In this document: one piece after another, positions 31,105 through 40,978 of the stretch | Layout of the letters: each line of letters begins with the position of its first letter | How positions within the stretch are numbered: position 1 is the first letter of the stretch | Assembly: GCA_027014125.1 (NCBI GenBank) | Contig: JALWEI010000028.1 | Coordinates: forward strand, 1-64,000 | Direction of reading: 5' to 3' | From: Acidilobaceae archaeon | Lineage (GTDB): Archaea; Thermoproteota; Thermoprotei_A; Sulfolobales; Acidilobaceae | Length of the DNA: 64,000 nucleotides | The notes under the pieces: generated by a model | The model's database searches: none | What the model was told of the DNA's origin: nothing | What the model saw: the letters and a program-made list of their open reading frames with translations, nothing else | Program-made: the position numbers and the translations under genes

Positions 31105-31509
31105 ATGAGTGTCAACTACGCCACTCTAGGGGAGCTCAAGAAGGGGTCCTATATCGTTATTGACGGGGAGCCCTGTAGGATAGTAGAGATCTCGAGGGCC
31201 AAGACCGGGAAGCATGGGAGTGCTAAGGCCCACGTGGTTGCTATAGGCGTCTTCAGCGGCCAGAAGAAGACTATGGTTGCCCCTGTTGACACAAGAGTTC
31301 AGGTACCGGTTATAGAGAAGAGGCTTGCCCAGGTGCTTGCTGACATGGGTGACATGGTCCAGCTCATGGACCTGGAGACCTTCGAGACCTTCGAGGTGGA
31401 GAAGCCCACTGACGATCCCAACCTTGCCGAGAAGCTTGCCTCCGGCGTTAATGTGGAGTATTGGATTATAATGGGTAGGCCTAAGATTATAAGAATAAGG
31501 AGTAGCTAG
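31105..31509 (+). CDS. Translation factor aIF5A
   Basis: Hypusine-containing elongation factor relieving ribosome stalls at difficult peptide bonds. The 134-residue protein has an N-terminal SH3-like domain with the hypusine loop KTGKHG (Lys36) and a C-terminal OB fold. The ATG at 31105 lies about 8 nt after GGTGGG; a GTG at 31093 is also in frame. Spermidine for modification would come from the speE product in this window. It ends 4 bp inside the convergent TrmY-like gene. Confidence 0.96.
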
Positions 31510-31973
31510 GCTGGGAGCCCCGCTTCTACCCTATCAATTATAATATTAGCTAGGACAGGCATCAGCCATACCCTCAGCCTATCCATTTGGAGCCCAGCAT
31601 CGCTACACTCCTCGCCATACCATAGGACAATAGTAGAACCCTGCCCAGCGCCAACTATATCCTTCAGGCTTGTCCTCCCCCTGGGCCCCACGCAGGGGCC
31701 TGTGGGTGGTGCCTGGTTTTGCCCGGCGAGTCTTGCACCTAGCCTGGAGGCCTTGCCCTTGTAGGCGACTGCCTTCACCCACGCCTCGGCGCTTACCAGG
31801 TCTGGCCTAAGCTGCCTTATGCTACTCCCTGACGCTACTATCCATGTTCTCCCTATTCTGACCCATGCCTCCGTATCTGTCCTGACTCCGTGTGAGACTA
31901 GTAGTGATGATACTAGGAATAGGCCTGCCTCCTCCTCTGTTAGCCTATCTGCTGCCACGTGTATCCTCTTCAT
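31506..31973 (-). CDS. TrmY-like tRNA pseudouridine-54 N1-methyltransferase (SPOUT, DUF358)
   Basis: The 155-residue protein resembles the TrmY family. The stretch [18 protein letters not shown] followed by [19 protein letters not shown] matches the SHG-R-D and LRPD core, and the C-terminal glycine-rich part is where the SAM knot lies. The match is partial, so I keep confidence moderate. It forms a 4-bp ATGA overlap with srp54 upstream, so it is translated after that gene. TrmY methylates pseudouridine 54 to m1Psi54 in tRNA. Confidence 0.6.
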
Positions 31974-33407: not shown

Positions 33408-34769
33408 GTGCCAGCGGTGGAGGAGGTTAAGATCCCGCTGGGCAGGGCTAAGGCCCCGTCGCTCCACAGCCACATAACCGGCCTGGGCCTCGACAAGGAT
33501 GGGAAGGCGCTGAAGGTTGCGGGAGGCCTAGTCGGGCAGGAGGAGGCTAGGGAGGCTGCGGGGATTATTATCGACATGATTAGGAAGGGCAAGCTGGGCG
33601 GCAAGGGCATACTAATAGCTGGCCCTCCGGGGACGGGTAAGACCGCCATAGCGATAGCCATAGCGAGGGAGTTGAGCAGTGATACCCCCTTCGTCGCCCT
33701 GAACGCCAGCGAGGTTTACAGTGTTGAGAAGAAGAAAAGCGAGGTCCTGATGCAGGCTGTTAGGAAGGCTATCGGCGTTAGGGTTAGGGAGAGGAAGAGG
33801 GTATATGAGGGTGTAGTAACGGAGATTAGGTATCTGAGGAAGAGGAGCAGGCTCTACCCCTATCCCGTAATAGCTGGGGCCGAGCTTGCCCTCGAGACGG
33901 ATGATGACTCCAGGCGCTTCACGGCAGGGCCCGAGATAGCAGAGCAGTTGTATAGGCTCAACGTTAGGAAGGGTGACGTGATCGAGATCGACGCGGATGA
34001 GGGTGTTGTCAGGAAGCTGGGTAGGGCTAGGGGCTACGAGTCCAGGGTGTTCGACATAGGAGGGGACGTGCTTGTGGACAAGCCCAGCGGAGAGGTGGAG
34101 AAGGTTAAGGAGGTAACTAGGATATTCACGCTGCACGACATAGACGTGAGCCTTGCACTCCAGAGGGCCGCTTTTACAAGCCTTTTCGGCGTATTGACTG
34201 CCGAGAGGGAGATAAGCGATGAGGTGAGGAGGAAAACCGATGAGATCGTTAAGAAGATGATCGACGAGGGTAGAGCCGAGATCGTGCCTGGAGTACTCTT
34301 TATCGATGACGCTCATCTGCTAGACCTGGAGTCGTACTCATTCATAACCAAGGCAATGGAGAGCGACTTCACCCCTATAATAATCCTAGCCACCAACAGG
34401 GGCATCACCAAGATCCGGGGAACCGACGTAGAGTCCCCCCACGGGATGCCTAGGGACCTGCTAGATAGACTTCTCATAATAACAACAAGGCCGTACACAC
34501 GGGAGGAGATACGAGAAATAATAAGGATCAGGGCCGACGAGGAGGAGGTTCCCCTAGTCGATGAGGCCTTGGAGAAGCTAGCCGATATAGGGGTGGAGAA
34601 CAGCCTCAGGTACGCCATACAACTGCTGGAGCCTTCCAGGATAATAGCCGAGAGGAGGGGGAGGCTCAAGGTTGAGCCTGAGGATGTGGATGCTGCTGCC
34701 CGTCTATTTAGTGACGTGAAGAGGAGTGTTGAGGCTATAGAGAGGTATAAGGACCTCATGCTGGCCTAG
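33408..34769 (+). CDS. TIP49/RuvB-like AAA+ ATPase (RuvBL family)
   Basis: The 453-residue protein is a TIP49-type helicase-related ATPase, with Walker A GPPGTGKT at 72-79 and the family's insertion domain between it and Walker B. Walker B is FIDDAHLLD near 299-307, with Asp where the family normally has Glu (FIDE). Sensor-1 ATNRG and the C-terminal lid are present. The start is a GTG at 33408. In archaea TIP49 is linked to chromatin or RNP assembly; a specific role is not known. It ends 5 bp from the convergent palm-domain gene. Confidence 0.92.
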   Translation: MPAVEEVKIPLGRAKAPSLHSHITGLGLDKDGKALKVAGGLVGQEEAREAAGIIIDMIRKGKLGGKGILIAGPPGTGKTAIAIAIARELSSDTPFVALNASEVYSVEKKKSEVLMQAVRKAIGVRVRERKRVYEGVVTEIRYLRKRSRLYPYPVIAGAELALETDDDSRRFTAGPEIAEQLYRLNVRKGDVIEIDADEGVVRKLGRARGYESRVFDIGGDVLVDKPSGEVEKVKEVTRIFTLHDIDVSLALQRAAFTSLFGVLTAEREISDEVRRKTDEIVKKMIDEGRAEIVPGVLFIDDAHLLDLESYSFITKAMESDFTPIIILATNRGITKIRGTDVESPHGMPRDLLDRLLIITTRPYTREEIREIIRIRADEEEVPLVDEALEKLADIGVENSLRYAIQLLEPSRIIAERRGRLKVEPEDVDAAARLFSDVKRSVEAIERYKDLMLA

Positions 34770-34774
34770 AGGGC

Positions 34775-35257
34775 CTACTCCTCTATGTATACAATGTCTC
34801 CTCCCCTGGCCTTGAGTTTTCTAAGGATCCTTGCAGCCCTCCTCCTGTAGGATGAGTATGCCTCCCTCCTGGTTCTGGCCGGCCTTGCTGTTAGGTGTTC
34901 TCGAACCGCTACTATTGTGATACTGGCTCCCTCACTCTTTACCTTTTTCCTAATCTCCTCTAGGTCCTCCTTGATCTCGTGTGGATCTACTAGTGGTATC
35001 TCTATTACCGCCTCCTCTGTGCCCCTCTCCCAGCTTAACCCGTATACTACTACTCCTCTCCACTTCCTGGCGAAGGCTTCTACAAGGTTGGAGAGGAGGC
35101 CTGTCACCCTGTTTGGCCTGTACTCATCTAGCCCATGCTTCTCCATGTATTCCTCCATATTGTCTAGGTCCATGATTACTAGTGTGCCAACCGTCAGGGG
35201 GGTCGGTGTGAGACTAGGCCTGTCACCATATCCATCCTTGGCTGCCCGCTTCCTCAT
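34775..35257 (-). CDS. Palm-domain (GGDEF / GTP cyclohydrolase III-like) nucleotide enzyme candidate
   Basis: The 160-residue protein has the layout of a single palm fold. There is a beta strand ending in MDLDN (Asp30, Asp32), a helix with R-x-NRVTGLLSNLVEAFARKWRGVVVYG, then an acidic turn ERGTEE, a strand AVIEIP, a helix DPHEIKEDLEEIRKKV, and a strand ASITIVAV. This resembles archaeal GTP cyclohydrolase III and minimal CRISPR-type polymerase domains; the assignment is by pattern only. GGTGGAGGGG stands just before the ATG at 35257, and a TATA box at 35310-35318 lies inside a longer open frame reaching 35308, so the ATG is the start. Divergent from tbp, convergent with TIP49. Confidence 0.6.
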   Translation of the reverse strand: MRKRAAKDGYGDRPSLTPTPLTVGTLVIMDLDNMEEYMEKHGLDEYRPNRVTGLLSNLVEAFARKWRGVVVYGLSWERGTEEAVIEIPLVDPHEIKEDLEEIRKKVKSEGASITIVAVREHLTARPARTRREAYSSYRRRAARILRKLKARGGDIVYIEE

Positions 35258-35309
35258 ACCCCTCCACCAACCCCCTTTGCGTGGGTTATTGGCTAGGCCC
35301 GGCTGCATG

Positions 35310-35373: not shown

Positions 35374-35973
35374 ATGAAGAAAGACGCTAAAGAGGGCAAA
35401 TCACATGACAAGTATCCCGAGCCTGAGCATAAAATTGAGAACATAGTTGCTACTGTCATTCTAGATCACCCACTTGACCTAAATCTAATAGAGACTAGGA
35501 TACCGGACGTGGATTACAATCCAGACCAGTTTCCAGGCCTAGTGTATAGACTTCAGAAGCCTAAGGTAACTGCTCTAATCTTCAAGTCGGGCAAGATGGT
35601 CATAACCGGGTCTAAGAGCGTGAAGGAGCTCGTAGTCTCGGTAAAGAGGATCCTGAGGACCCTTATGGAGCACGGGATAGAGATAAGGGGGAGGCCGCAG
35701 ATCCAGATTCAGAATATAGTCGCCTCTGCAAACCTTCACGTCTACATAGACCTGGAGAAGGCGGCATTTATACTCGAGAGGAGCATGTATGAGCCTGAGC
35801 AGTTCCCTGGGCTGATATATAGGATGGATAAGCCCCGGGTGGTCCTGCTCATATTCAGTAGTGGGAAGATGGTTATAACTGGTGCTAAGAGGGAGGAGGA
35901 GGTTGCAGAGGCTGTTAATACCATCTATAAGACCTTGAAGGAGAATAGCTGTATACTCGGCCCGGCCGATTAG
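35374..35973 (+). CDS. tbp: TATA-box binding protein
   Basis: General transcription factor that binds archaeal TATA boxes. The 199-residue protein consists of two direct repeats, with [17 protein letters not shown] / QFPGLVYRL / [11 protein letters not shown] and [17 protein letters not shown] / QFPGLIYRM / [12 protein letters not shown] 20-residue charged N-terminal tail precedes the first repeat and a short tail follows the second. Near-perfect repeat symmetry is typical of archaeal TBPs. Confidence 0.98.
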
Positions 35974-35977
35974 CAGG

Positions 35978-36733
35978 CTATCCTAGGATCTGCTCTAGTA
36001 TCTCCAGCCTAGCTAGCTCCATTATGCCCCCCGACTCGTCTACTATATATGGGACTGCGAGGTCTACGAGTCCCTGCTCCCTGATTAGGGGGGACAGGTA
36101 TGCTTCCCTAACGCTACTTATAATGTTTCCGGTCTGGTAGGTTCCCATAGCTGGTATTATGACTGCCGTGCCCCCGCTATCTAGTGGTACTCTTAGGAAT
36201 ACTGGGAATTTTACCCTTGAGCCTCCTACTCTTACCTGTATTGATGGGTGCTCGTGGCCTAGCACGATTACTCCACTAGTGTCCTTGGGCTTCTTGTGTC
36301 CATGTATAACATTGATGCCGTGTACCTCTATCTCGTCTTCTATGAATTCCGCTCCTTCAGATTTTATTATTGTCGATATGAAGTTGTCATGGTTCCCCCT
36401 GATCACGATCACCTCTTTATATAGAGTGAGCGCTTCTCTTATGAATGTTGAGACCTCTTCCCTCTCGCTTCTTAGCAGCTTGTTGAACGCGTGTTTGATG
36501 TCTCCCGCTATCACTAGTTTCCTCGTGCCGGGGGAGGCGTTTGCTATCTCCCTGAGAGTCTTGATGGCGTTTCTCAGCTGGACACGGGGTAGGTAGACTC
36601 CGTCCCGGGAGAGTGCTTCCTCGTATCCAAGGTGTAGGTCCGCTACTATAACGTAGTCTTGTATCCTTGCCGCTGGTAGTCCTGGTAGGGCGTGTATTCC
36701 GGGTGCTATCTCTACTTCACTGTTGGCCAGCAC
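35978..36733 (-). CDS. Calcineurin-like metallophosphoesterase (COG1407-like)
   Basis: The 251-residue cytoplasmic enzyme has all five dimetal motifs: DLHLGYEE, GDIKHAF, GNHDNF, HGHKKP and GHEHPS. It belongs to the archaeal ICC-like group (COG1407), whose substrates are unknown. It is convergent with tbp (4 bp gap) and has no obvious partner. Confidence 0.9.
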   Translation of the reverse strand: MLANSEVEIAPGIHALPGLPAARIQDYVIVADLHLGYEEALSRDGVYLPRVQLRNAIKTLREIANASPGTRKLVIAGDIKHAFNKLLRSEREEVSTFIREALTLYKEVIVIRGNHDNFISTIIKSEGAEFIEDEIEVHGINVIHGHKKPKDTSGVIVLGHEHPSIQVRVGGSRVKFPVFLRVPLDSGGTAVIIPAMGTYQTGNIISSVREAYLSPLIREQGLVDLAVPYIVDESGGIMELARLEILEQILG

Positions 36734-36989: not shown

Positions 36990-38042
36990 CTACCTGGCAA
37001 CGTAGATGTTATCCTTAGATCTGGCTATTCTGACTGTCATACTGGTTCCTGGGCTAGCCTTTCTGCCTAGGACAGCTATGATCCTCTTCCACCTGTAGTC
37101 TACTGCTAGCATCTCGCCCACGTGCCACCCCTCTCCTAGTATGTGGACTTTTACCCTGTCCCCGGGCTTATACTCCTCTGCAACCTTGGGCGCTCTCCTG
37201 AAGCCGATCTCCTCTGGGCCTACTCTGAGCCTGTACCCAGTCTCCTCTTCCAGCTTCTTCAGCCACTTGTAGAATCTGCTCCAGCTCCACGGCTTTACTC
37301 CTGGAGGGCTTCTACCCCACTTGTGGGCCTGGTAGTTCTGTATTAGCACTCCGGTCGGCCAGCCAGACTTTACACCGGCACCTGCTTCTTTGGCCCACTC
37401 TATTAGCCTCTTCATCTCTTCCTCGTTGAAGCCTGGTACTAGTACTGGGGTCAACACCACGTCTATCCTCGTATTCCTTATAGCCCATTCAGCCACCTCT
37501 AGTATCCTTGAGGGGTTGTACCATTGCACCCCTACTAGCGTCCTAGCCTTGCCTGTATCCACAGCGTCTATGCTTAGGTTTATCCTGTCTAGCCCTGCCT
37601 CTGCCAGCTTCCTTACCAGGCCCTTGGAGAGGAAGCCCCCGTGCGTCTCTATGGCTATCCTCTCCACCCACCTACTGGAGCGTAGCCTCTTGACAAGGTC
37701 TAGTATCCCCGGGTGGGATAGAGGCTCTCCCACCCCATCTATTAGGGCCTCTACCTTGACCCCCTTAGCCTCTGCAACCATATCGACCCAGTATGCTAGC
37801 CAGCTAGTGTCCACCATGAACTCTGCCTGCCTCGTCCTGCTACTTGGACCTGCATCGACGCTACAGAATATGCATGAGTGGGGGCACCATGTGTAGGGTC
37901 TTACCTGGAGCACGTTTGATCCACGATCGATAACCCCGAAGGCGATGTGGCCCATTAGGGGTATCGGTTTTCCTATCATAACTACTGGCCTACCAGCTAC
38001 TGTTCCAGCCCTAGTCAGGATCCTGTCTCTAATGTATAGCAT
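36990..38042 (-). CDS. Radical SAM enzyme with C-terminal TRAM-like domain (COG2100-like)
   Basis: The 350-residue protein has the [4Fe-4S] motif CPHSCIFC (Cys53, Cys57, Cys60, C-x3-C-x2-C) in WCPHSCIFCSVDAG, then IDGVGEPLSHP and THGGFLSKG, which follow the radical SAM barrel. The last 70 residues form a beta-rich domain (EYKPGDRVKVHILGEGWHVGE) resembling an RNA-binding TRAM. The substrate is unknown; the TRAM suggests RNA or tRNA modification (inference). Confidence 0.88.
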   Translation of the reverse strand: MLYIRDRILTRAGTVAGRPVVMIGKPIPLMGHIAFGVIDRGSNVLQVRPYTWCPHSCIFCSVDAGPSSRTRQAEFMVDTSWLAYWVDMVAEAKGVKVEALIDGVGEPLSHPGILDLVKRLRSSRWVERIAIETHGGFLSKGLVRKLAEAGLDRINLSIDAVDTGKARTLVGVQWYNPSRILEVAEWAIRNTRIDVVLTPVLVPGFNEEEMKRLIEWAKEAGAGVKSGWPTGVLIQNYQAHKWGRSPPGVKPWSWSRFYKWLKKLEEETGYRLRVGPEEIGFRRAPKVAEEYKPGDRVKVHILGEGWHVGEMLAVDYRWKRIIAVLGRKASPGTSMTVRIARSKDNIYVAR

Positions 38043-39439: not shown

Positions 39440-40051
39440 CTAGTACCTCTCTATATAGTATCTACCACCGCACGGTGGTTTGCTATGGTCACTCACGGTG
39501 CTAGATAGTATGGAACATTTCTTACTATCCCTGTCATAAAATAGGCATTTCAAACATGATACACCATCCACACTTATATTTATATCTCCTATATTTATAT
39601 CTATAAGCTTTAAATGTAGTATATCCCCGTTATCATCGGAGCCGCAAACCTCCTCTATGCCTCTCCCTATTGCCTCAACGAATCTTTTGAAATCGCTGTT
39701 CATAGCGGCTTTTACTATTAAATTTCTAACTAGTCCAACATTAAATTCACATTCAAGTATTACTTTATCATTTTCATGTTTTATCTCAAATTTACATTTA
39801 TATTTTGAATCTGATGTACTTACGTATCTTATAGAAGTATTGTTTGCATGTATAACCATAGTCGTATCGAATATCCAAACCCTCCCAAATTTAACCCATT
39901 TAAATTTAATATTATATAAATTATTATCTAAAGGTTTTATTTCTTCCAGATTTTCTGTGCTACCGAATAGGGTGTGGGGATCTCTAAGTAAATGTATACA
40001 TTCCCGGAGTTTATCTGGATTTATATGCAATTGTTTAGTGTGTTTTAACAT
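39440..40051 (-). CDS. AT-rich unassigned protein: SRPBCC-like domain plus C-terminal Cys cluster
   Basis: The 203-residue protein has an N-terminal segment like a START/SRPBCC ligand-binding domain (LRECIHLLRDPHTLF, then NNLYNIKFKWV and an internal beta repeat, ending in a long helix). A C-terminal motif C-x2-C-x8-C-x12-C (SCLKCLFYDRDSKKC, then PPC) may bind zinc or an Fe-S cluster. Base composition is much more AT-rich than its neighbours. It lies just after tRNA-Pro, a frequent insertion site, so lateral acquisition is plausible. The fold call is tentative. Confidence 0.6.
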   Translation of the reverse strand: MLKHTKQLHINPDKLRECIHLLRDPHTLFGSTENLEEIKPLDNNLYNIKFKWVKFGRVWIFDTTMVIHANNTSIRYVSTSDSKYKCKFEIKHENDKVILECEFNVGLVRNLIVKAAMNSDFKRFVEAIGRGIEEVCGSDDNGDILHLKLIDINIGDINISVDGVSCLKCLFYDRDSKKCSILSSTVSDHSKPPCGGRYYIERY

Positions 40052-40899: not shown

Positions 40900-40978
40900 G
40901 CGGCGGTCGTCTAGCCTGGACTAGGACGCCGGCCTGCCAAGCCGGAGGTCCCGGGTTCAAATCCCGGCCGCCGCACCA
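40900..40978 (+). tRNA. tRNA-Gly(GCC), no intron, CCA encoded
   Basis: Acceptor GCGGCGG/CCGCCGC, D stem GTCT with loop AGCCTGGACTA, anticodon stem CCGGC/GCCGG with loop CTGCCAA (anticodon GCC), T arm CCGGG-TTCAAAT-CCCGG, A73 and CCA. It is the only one of the four tRNA genes here without an intron. Confidence 0.95.

Follow-up and report, generated by a model that had tools for sequence, protein, structure and literature searches.

The window, that is, the whole stretch of 64,000 nucleotides analysed here, carries a small minus-strand gene encoding a GGDEF-like palm protein. It lies between the genes for TIP49 and the TATA-box-binding protein (TBP), in the following arrangement:

33408..34769, plus strand: TIP49 (RuvB-like) ATPase, convergent neighbour (PF06068, 1.5e-137)
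34775..35257, minus strand: GGDEF-like palm protein gene, 160 aa, stop codon within the coordinates (from the open reading frame, its family, AlphaFold2, Foldseek and hhalign)
35258..35269, minus strand: Shine-Dalgarno-like stretch GGTGGAGGGGT upstream of the palm-gene ATG (read from the sequence)
35374..35973, plus strand: tbp, TATA-box-binding protein, divergent neighbour (PF00352, 3.2e-65; NF001592, 1e-98)
35978..36733, minus strand: calcineurin-like phosphoesterase (TIGR00024, SbcD_rel_arch), a frequent neighbour of the palm gene

The first-pass annotation had delimited the gene in the same way, and the reading frame agrees with it, starting at an ATG at 35257 and stopping at 34775. This ATG corresponds to the start common to near relatives (MxKRAA...); a second in-frame ATG upstream, at 35308, would give a protein of 177 aa. 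The annotation had also described the gene as standing between TIP49 and TBP without CRISPR genes, which matches the annotated flanks and the absence of any CRISPR gene among the annotated neighbours. Is this small frame a gene at all? The dN/dS values from comparison with three relatives are 0.10, 0.11 and 0.22 and homologues occur across dozens of genera, so the frame is not a product of chance. The palm gene is a real gene under purifying selection.

How widespread is the family? A protein search of 60 relatives, in which no motif was required, returned 31 convincing homologues. A motif-guided scan of 84,980 species returned 61 loci, all in Thermoproteota-group archaea (Acidilobaceae, Pyrodictiaceae, Desulfurococcaceae, Aeropyrum and Thermodiscus, plus Methanomethylicota, Geoarchaeota and Culexmicrobium bins). 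Within the order, profile searches found the gene, always in single copy, in 47 of 118 high-quality genomes and, with all quality levels counted, in 28 of 52 genera; across the phylum 14 of 200 genomes have it, and a few deeper Thermoproteota lineages also carry it. No family in Pfam or NCBIfam covers the protein, and no member scores above a curated cut-off. A viral origin was considered and rejected: a motif scan of 2.9 million viral contigs found no relative, and the only sensible matches in a viral structure library were GGDEF-like phage proteins. Of note, one locus (L026, G006:C20:1777-2199) has an in-frame TGA that breaks the frame early and is a possible pseudogene; the copy in the second genome of that genus (G018) is intact but divergent.

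What kind of protein is it? A palm domain had been proposed from the letters of the translation (MDLDN, VVVYG, an acidic turn, AVIEIP and a later helix and strand), with likeness to GGDEF domains, the minimal CRISPR polymerase mCpol and GTP cyclohydrolase III (GCH III). All of these elements are found in the frame, the acidic turn being SWERGTEE. An AlphaFold2 model built with 53 aligned members has a pLDDT of 90.2 and a pTM of 0.82, and that of a Methanomethylicota member reaches 95.3 and 0.89. Both models show the order β1-α1-α2-β2-β3-α3-β4-α4-β5, the canonical GGDEF topology, which is also that stated for the diguanylate cyclase DgcR (PMC8041772). Foldseek searches of the PDB with the window protein gave 16 matches below 0.001, made up of GGDEF proteins, class III adenylyl cyclases and Pyrococcus Cmr2/Cas10; the mCpol OptS was matched at 1e-3 and GCH III at 2.5e-3, with TM values of about 0.5-0.59. 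For the Methanomethylicota member the first eight matches were GGDEF proteins (best E 1.5e-6, TM up to 0.67), and mCpol was found at 3.9e-5. The palm fold thus stands, within a group that comprises GGDEF proteins, class III cyclases, Cas10, mCpol and GCH III. No sensor domain is fused to it.

By sequence, closeness to GCH III, also named in that proposal, was not borne out. Profile-profile comparison with hhalign placed the family nearest to GGDEF diguanylate cyclases: against eight E. coli GGDEF domains the probability was 94%, with P 1.5e-7 and a score of 50.1 over 126 columns, while 29 unrelated neighbour families scored at most 23.1, reversed columns 19.2 and 100 column shuffles at most 23.7. 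Against GCH III of the same genomes the score was 17.0 and the probability 0.5, and the protein has no Pfam match to GCH III (PF05165). GCH III shares the palm fold; however, it consists of two palm-like halves, about 240 aa in all, whereas the palm protein is one domain of 160 aa. Could the gene replace GCH III? This was ruled out, as a full GCH III is encoded at C35:58590-59270 of the same genome; GCH III occurs in 45 of the 60 relatives. Pfam GGDEF weakly matches 4 of 53 members and GGDEF_GdpP 3 of 53; the best PF00990 match of any member has an E value of 0.046, below the gathering cut-off, and the best GGDEF_GdpP match 6.6e-4. In PDB profile searches 3ign and 7e6g align in register with the family, ranked below designed proteins. 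These top matches, de novo TIM barrels and sr312, were set aside as compositional or short-motif similarity that is absent from the leading fold results. A weak phmmer match to aRF1 domain 3 (0.13; aRF1-length frames were hit as well) had no profile or fold support and was taken as chance, and DUF429, NifU, SecD, DALR and CARF3 were each matched by a single or a few members, below cut-off.

Among other palm enzymes, mCpol (OptS of Panoptes, a 2',3'-c-di-AMP synthase) is alike in being a stand-alone minimal palm with an Asp on strand 1 and a hairpin acid, and its structure 9pd0 is a fold match; it is shorter (about 120 aa versus 142-160 aa for the palm protein), and there is no sequence match between the two. 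A nucleotide-gated effector (2TM-β, CARF or SAVED) or CBASS, as in the mCpol operon, was not found when the genes around the palm gene were clustered or annotated. Thg1 and Cas10 belong to the same palm superfamily and have the acidic dyad in the hairpin, but the palm protein is a single domain that ends after β5 and does not have their extra modules.

Are the residues needed for catalysis kept? The codons in question are:

35162..35170, minus strand: D30-L31-D32 at the end of strand β1 (MDLDN), with D30 and D32 invariant in 52 of the 52 members covering the site
35102..35113, minus strand: N49-R50-V51-T52, with N49 and T52 invariant, located by alignment to GGDEF
35012..35026, minus strand: R78-G79-T80-E81-E82 in the β2-β3 hairpin, counterpart of GG[D/E]EF, invariant in 53 of 53
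34811..34813, minus strand: K149 in α4, by alignment the counterpart of the γ-phosphate lysine, invariant in 53 of 53

Conservation figures from the motif-guided scan are biased because the scan required the motif, but an alignment made from the motif-free search matches has the same invariant residues: D30, D32, N49, T52, R78, G79, T80, E81, E82 and K149. In DgcR, the metals are held by D174, E217 and E218, the γ-phosphate by K289 and R293 and the guanine by N182 and D191, with K179 near the α-phosphate (PMC8041772). The hhalign alignment and the motif spacing were used to read the corresponding residues. D174 and E217-E218 align with D30 and E81-E82, which would accordingly pair as metal ligands by analogy with solved GGDEF enzymes, and K289 aligns with K149. 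The palm protein thus shares with the GGDEF diguanylate cyclases (PF00990; PleD, WspR, DosC and DgcR) the fold topology, the profile-profile match, the Asp ending β1, the acidic pair in the β2-β3 hairpin and the Lys in α4. It differs in that the phosphate-binding R293 is replaced by G153, the base-contact Asn (N182) is lost (residue 38 is V, T, I or M), the base-contact Asp (D191) is the invariant N49 and the position of K179 (residue 35) is variable. The hairpin is about six residues longer, there is no sensory domain, and R78 and T52 are invariant residues with no GGDEF counterpart. Is it then a canonical diguanylate cyclase? Its sequence argues that it is not: RGTEE[AV] replaces the literal GG[D/E]EF in 53 of 53 members, the Pfam gathering cut-off is not reached and the guanine-contact Asn and Asp are both changed. 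With one guanine contact lost and Asn in place of Asp at the other, no substrate is predicted. N49 leaves the base open, since in Hypr GGDEF enzymes it is the residue at the D191 position, Ser versus Asp, that sets the purine preference (PMC6456294).

The resemblance to GGDEF was apparently remarked on earlier, if only briefly. Galperin (2005, PMC1183210) classed two proteins, MK0296 and APE1864 of Aeropyrum, as truncated GGDEF sequences. Anantharaman et al. (2010, PMC2904730) describe an archaeal family of small GGDEF-like proteins, with MK0296 as its type member and three acidic residues, for which they predict activity but consider signalling unlikely. By description this family is like the palm family: archaeal, short, with the acids kept and no signalling domains. 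The Aeropyrum pernix K1 member of the palm family lies at about 1.1783-1.1789 Mb, close to the position of APE1864 obtained by interpolation, and from this map position we infer that APE1864 is that member. The portions consulted of PMC1183210 and PMC2904730 give no distribution, neighbourhood, structure or function for these proteins. Thus, where the first-pass annotation had envisaged an undescribed archaeal enzyme, the family is uncharacterised in the literature searched, but its GGDEF likeness seems already to have been mentioned twice, in 2005 and 2010.

No cyclic-dinucleotide or other nucleotide signal pathway is known in crenarchaea outside type III CRISPR. No GGDEF protein above the Pfam cut-off was found in the 60 relatives, EAL, PilZ and DAC (DisA) domains were absent from 40 relatives, and no receptor, effector or degrading enzyme for a cyclic dinucleotide was identified. 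Archaea are regarded as having next to no GGDEF proteins, and a search for c-di-GMP in S. acidocaldarius was negative (PMC8646023); Sulfolobus-like genomes in our sample seem to have no palm gene. The palm protein combines the fold and active-site acids of c-di-GMP-making enzymes, therefore it is predicted to be, probably, a nucleotide-condensing enzyme, in microbes thought to have no such enzymes. From sequence and model it likely works like a GGDEF or mCpol enzyme. The reading that we favour, with confidence slightly above even, is a divergent, active and dimeric GGDEF-type nucleotide cyclase whose product would be a cyclic dinucleotide. The computed basis of this reading is the family itself, its fold, the conserved acids, the lack of a fused sensor and the absence of the c-di-GMP and c-di-AMP proteins searched for; activity, dimerisation, metal binding and product are what we infer from it. 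How could such an enzyme work? One protomer would bind an NTP with two Mg2+ held by D30 in β1 and E81-E82 in the hairpin, with K149 sitting on the triphosphate. Two protomers would be arranged face to face, like those of diguanylate cyclases and mCpol, and the 3'- or 2'-OH of each NTP would attack the α-phosphate of the other, yielding a cyclic dinucleotide.

Might the protein instead make cAMP or cGMP, or open or hydrolyse a purine NTP in the way of GCH III, with a cofactor or metabolic role? We consider this unlikely. The fold neighbours do include class III adenylyl cyclases and GCH III, it is not known by what means most archaea produce cAMP (PMC8646023), and the presence of GCH III in most palm-bearing relatives is compatible with a shared biosynthetic lifestyle. 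However, the profile is far nearer to GGDEF (50.1) than to GCH III (17.0), the genome has a complete GCH III gene at another locus, and an acid dyad in the hairpin is the polymerase/GGDEF pattern, whereas nucleotide cyclases have a single acid (PMC2904730).

The neighbourhood offers further hints. Genes for information processing surround the palm gene (tbp, TIP49, SRP54, aIF5A, NAC and TtuA). Of 59 loci, 32 have tbp and 30 have the TIGR00024 phosphoesterase at most two genes away; 31 of the 60 relatives carry the palm gene, and in 20 of these it is no more than 1.6 kb from tbp. TIP49 is near in only 3 of 59 loci and is not a conserved neighbour. The arrangement of the palm gene and tbp varies between codirectional, divergent and convergent. 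Do the palm gene, tbp and the phosphoesterase form a functional operon? The association is suggestive, but of 26 genomes that have no palm gene, 14 still have tbp and the phosphoesterase at most 2 kb apart, so this pair is independent of it and the operon was rejected. The linkage to tbp appears to be ancestral, whether or not it has a function. At L070, L076, L087 and G042:C1:293988-295531 the palm gene directly adjoins the phosphoesterase with no tbp between them (the distance to tbp in G042 is 65 kb), which may point to a tie between the palm gene and the phosphoesterase that does not involve tbp; this enzyme is a possible partner of the palm protein.

Persistence of the tbp linkage through all three arrangements would also suit a regulator that binds nucleotides but either lacks catalysis or hydrolyses them weakly, comparable to the degenerate GGDEF domain of GdpP; its target might be TBP or the phosphoesterase. 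The altered GGDEF motif and base-binding residues, and the place of GGDEF_GdpP among the better weak Pfam matches (6.6e-4), point the same way, but invariance across lineages of the acids that align with the GGDEF metal ligands, and of the phosphate lysine, would be unusual for a dead domain, and we regard this reading as improbable. A shade less probable still is a housekeeping nucleotidyltransferase acting on RNA or DNA ends like the Thg1 and Cas10 palms, which would fit the information-processing genes nearby and the view of PMC2904730 that the archaeal GGDEF-like family is active and unlikely to signal, with RNA as a possible substrate of some GGDEF relatives, but which is opposed by a length of 142-160 aa with no fingers or C-terminal nucleic-acid-binding module, by the absence of Thg1 from the Pfam matches and from the best 50 Foldseek matches, and by a neighbourhood that, tbp and the phosphoesterase apart, differs between lineages.

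Returning to the GGDEF-type nucleotide cyclase, a more extended version would make it, though lacking the canonical GGDEF motif, the source of a cyclic dinucleotide or other nucleotide messenger in Desulfurococcales and related Thermoproteota; the messenger would possibly be degraded by the phosphoesterase and tied to tbp expression. This version we hold to be doubtful. A conserved, single-copy, small and probably thermostable predicted enzyme with its acids intact makes the question of nucleotide second messengers in crenarchaea testable, and the family bears on the origin of bacterial GGDEF, Cas10 and mCpol from a common palm ancestor.

Other features of the window were recorded along the way. 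A 155-aa protein beside SRP54 (31506-31973, minus strand) and a 203-aa protein with a cysteine-rich C-terminus, CLKCLFYDRDSKKC (39440-40051, minus strand), have no Pfam match at 0.001, and ARAGORN places a tRNA-Gly (gcc) at 40900-40978 on the plus strand. A Radical SAM protein (36990-38042, minus strand), is weakly MoaA-like and under all NCBIfam cut-offs; in relatives its gene is among those seen more often near the palm gene.
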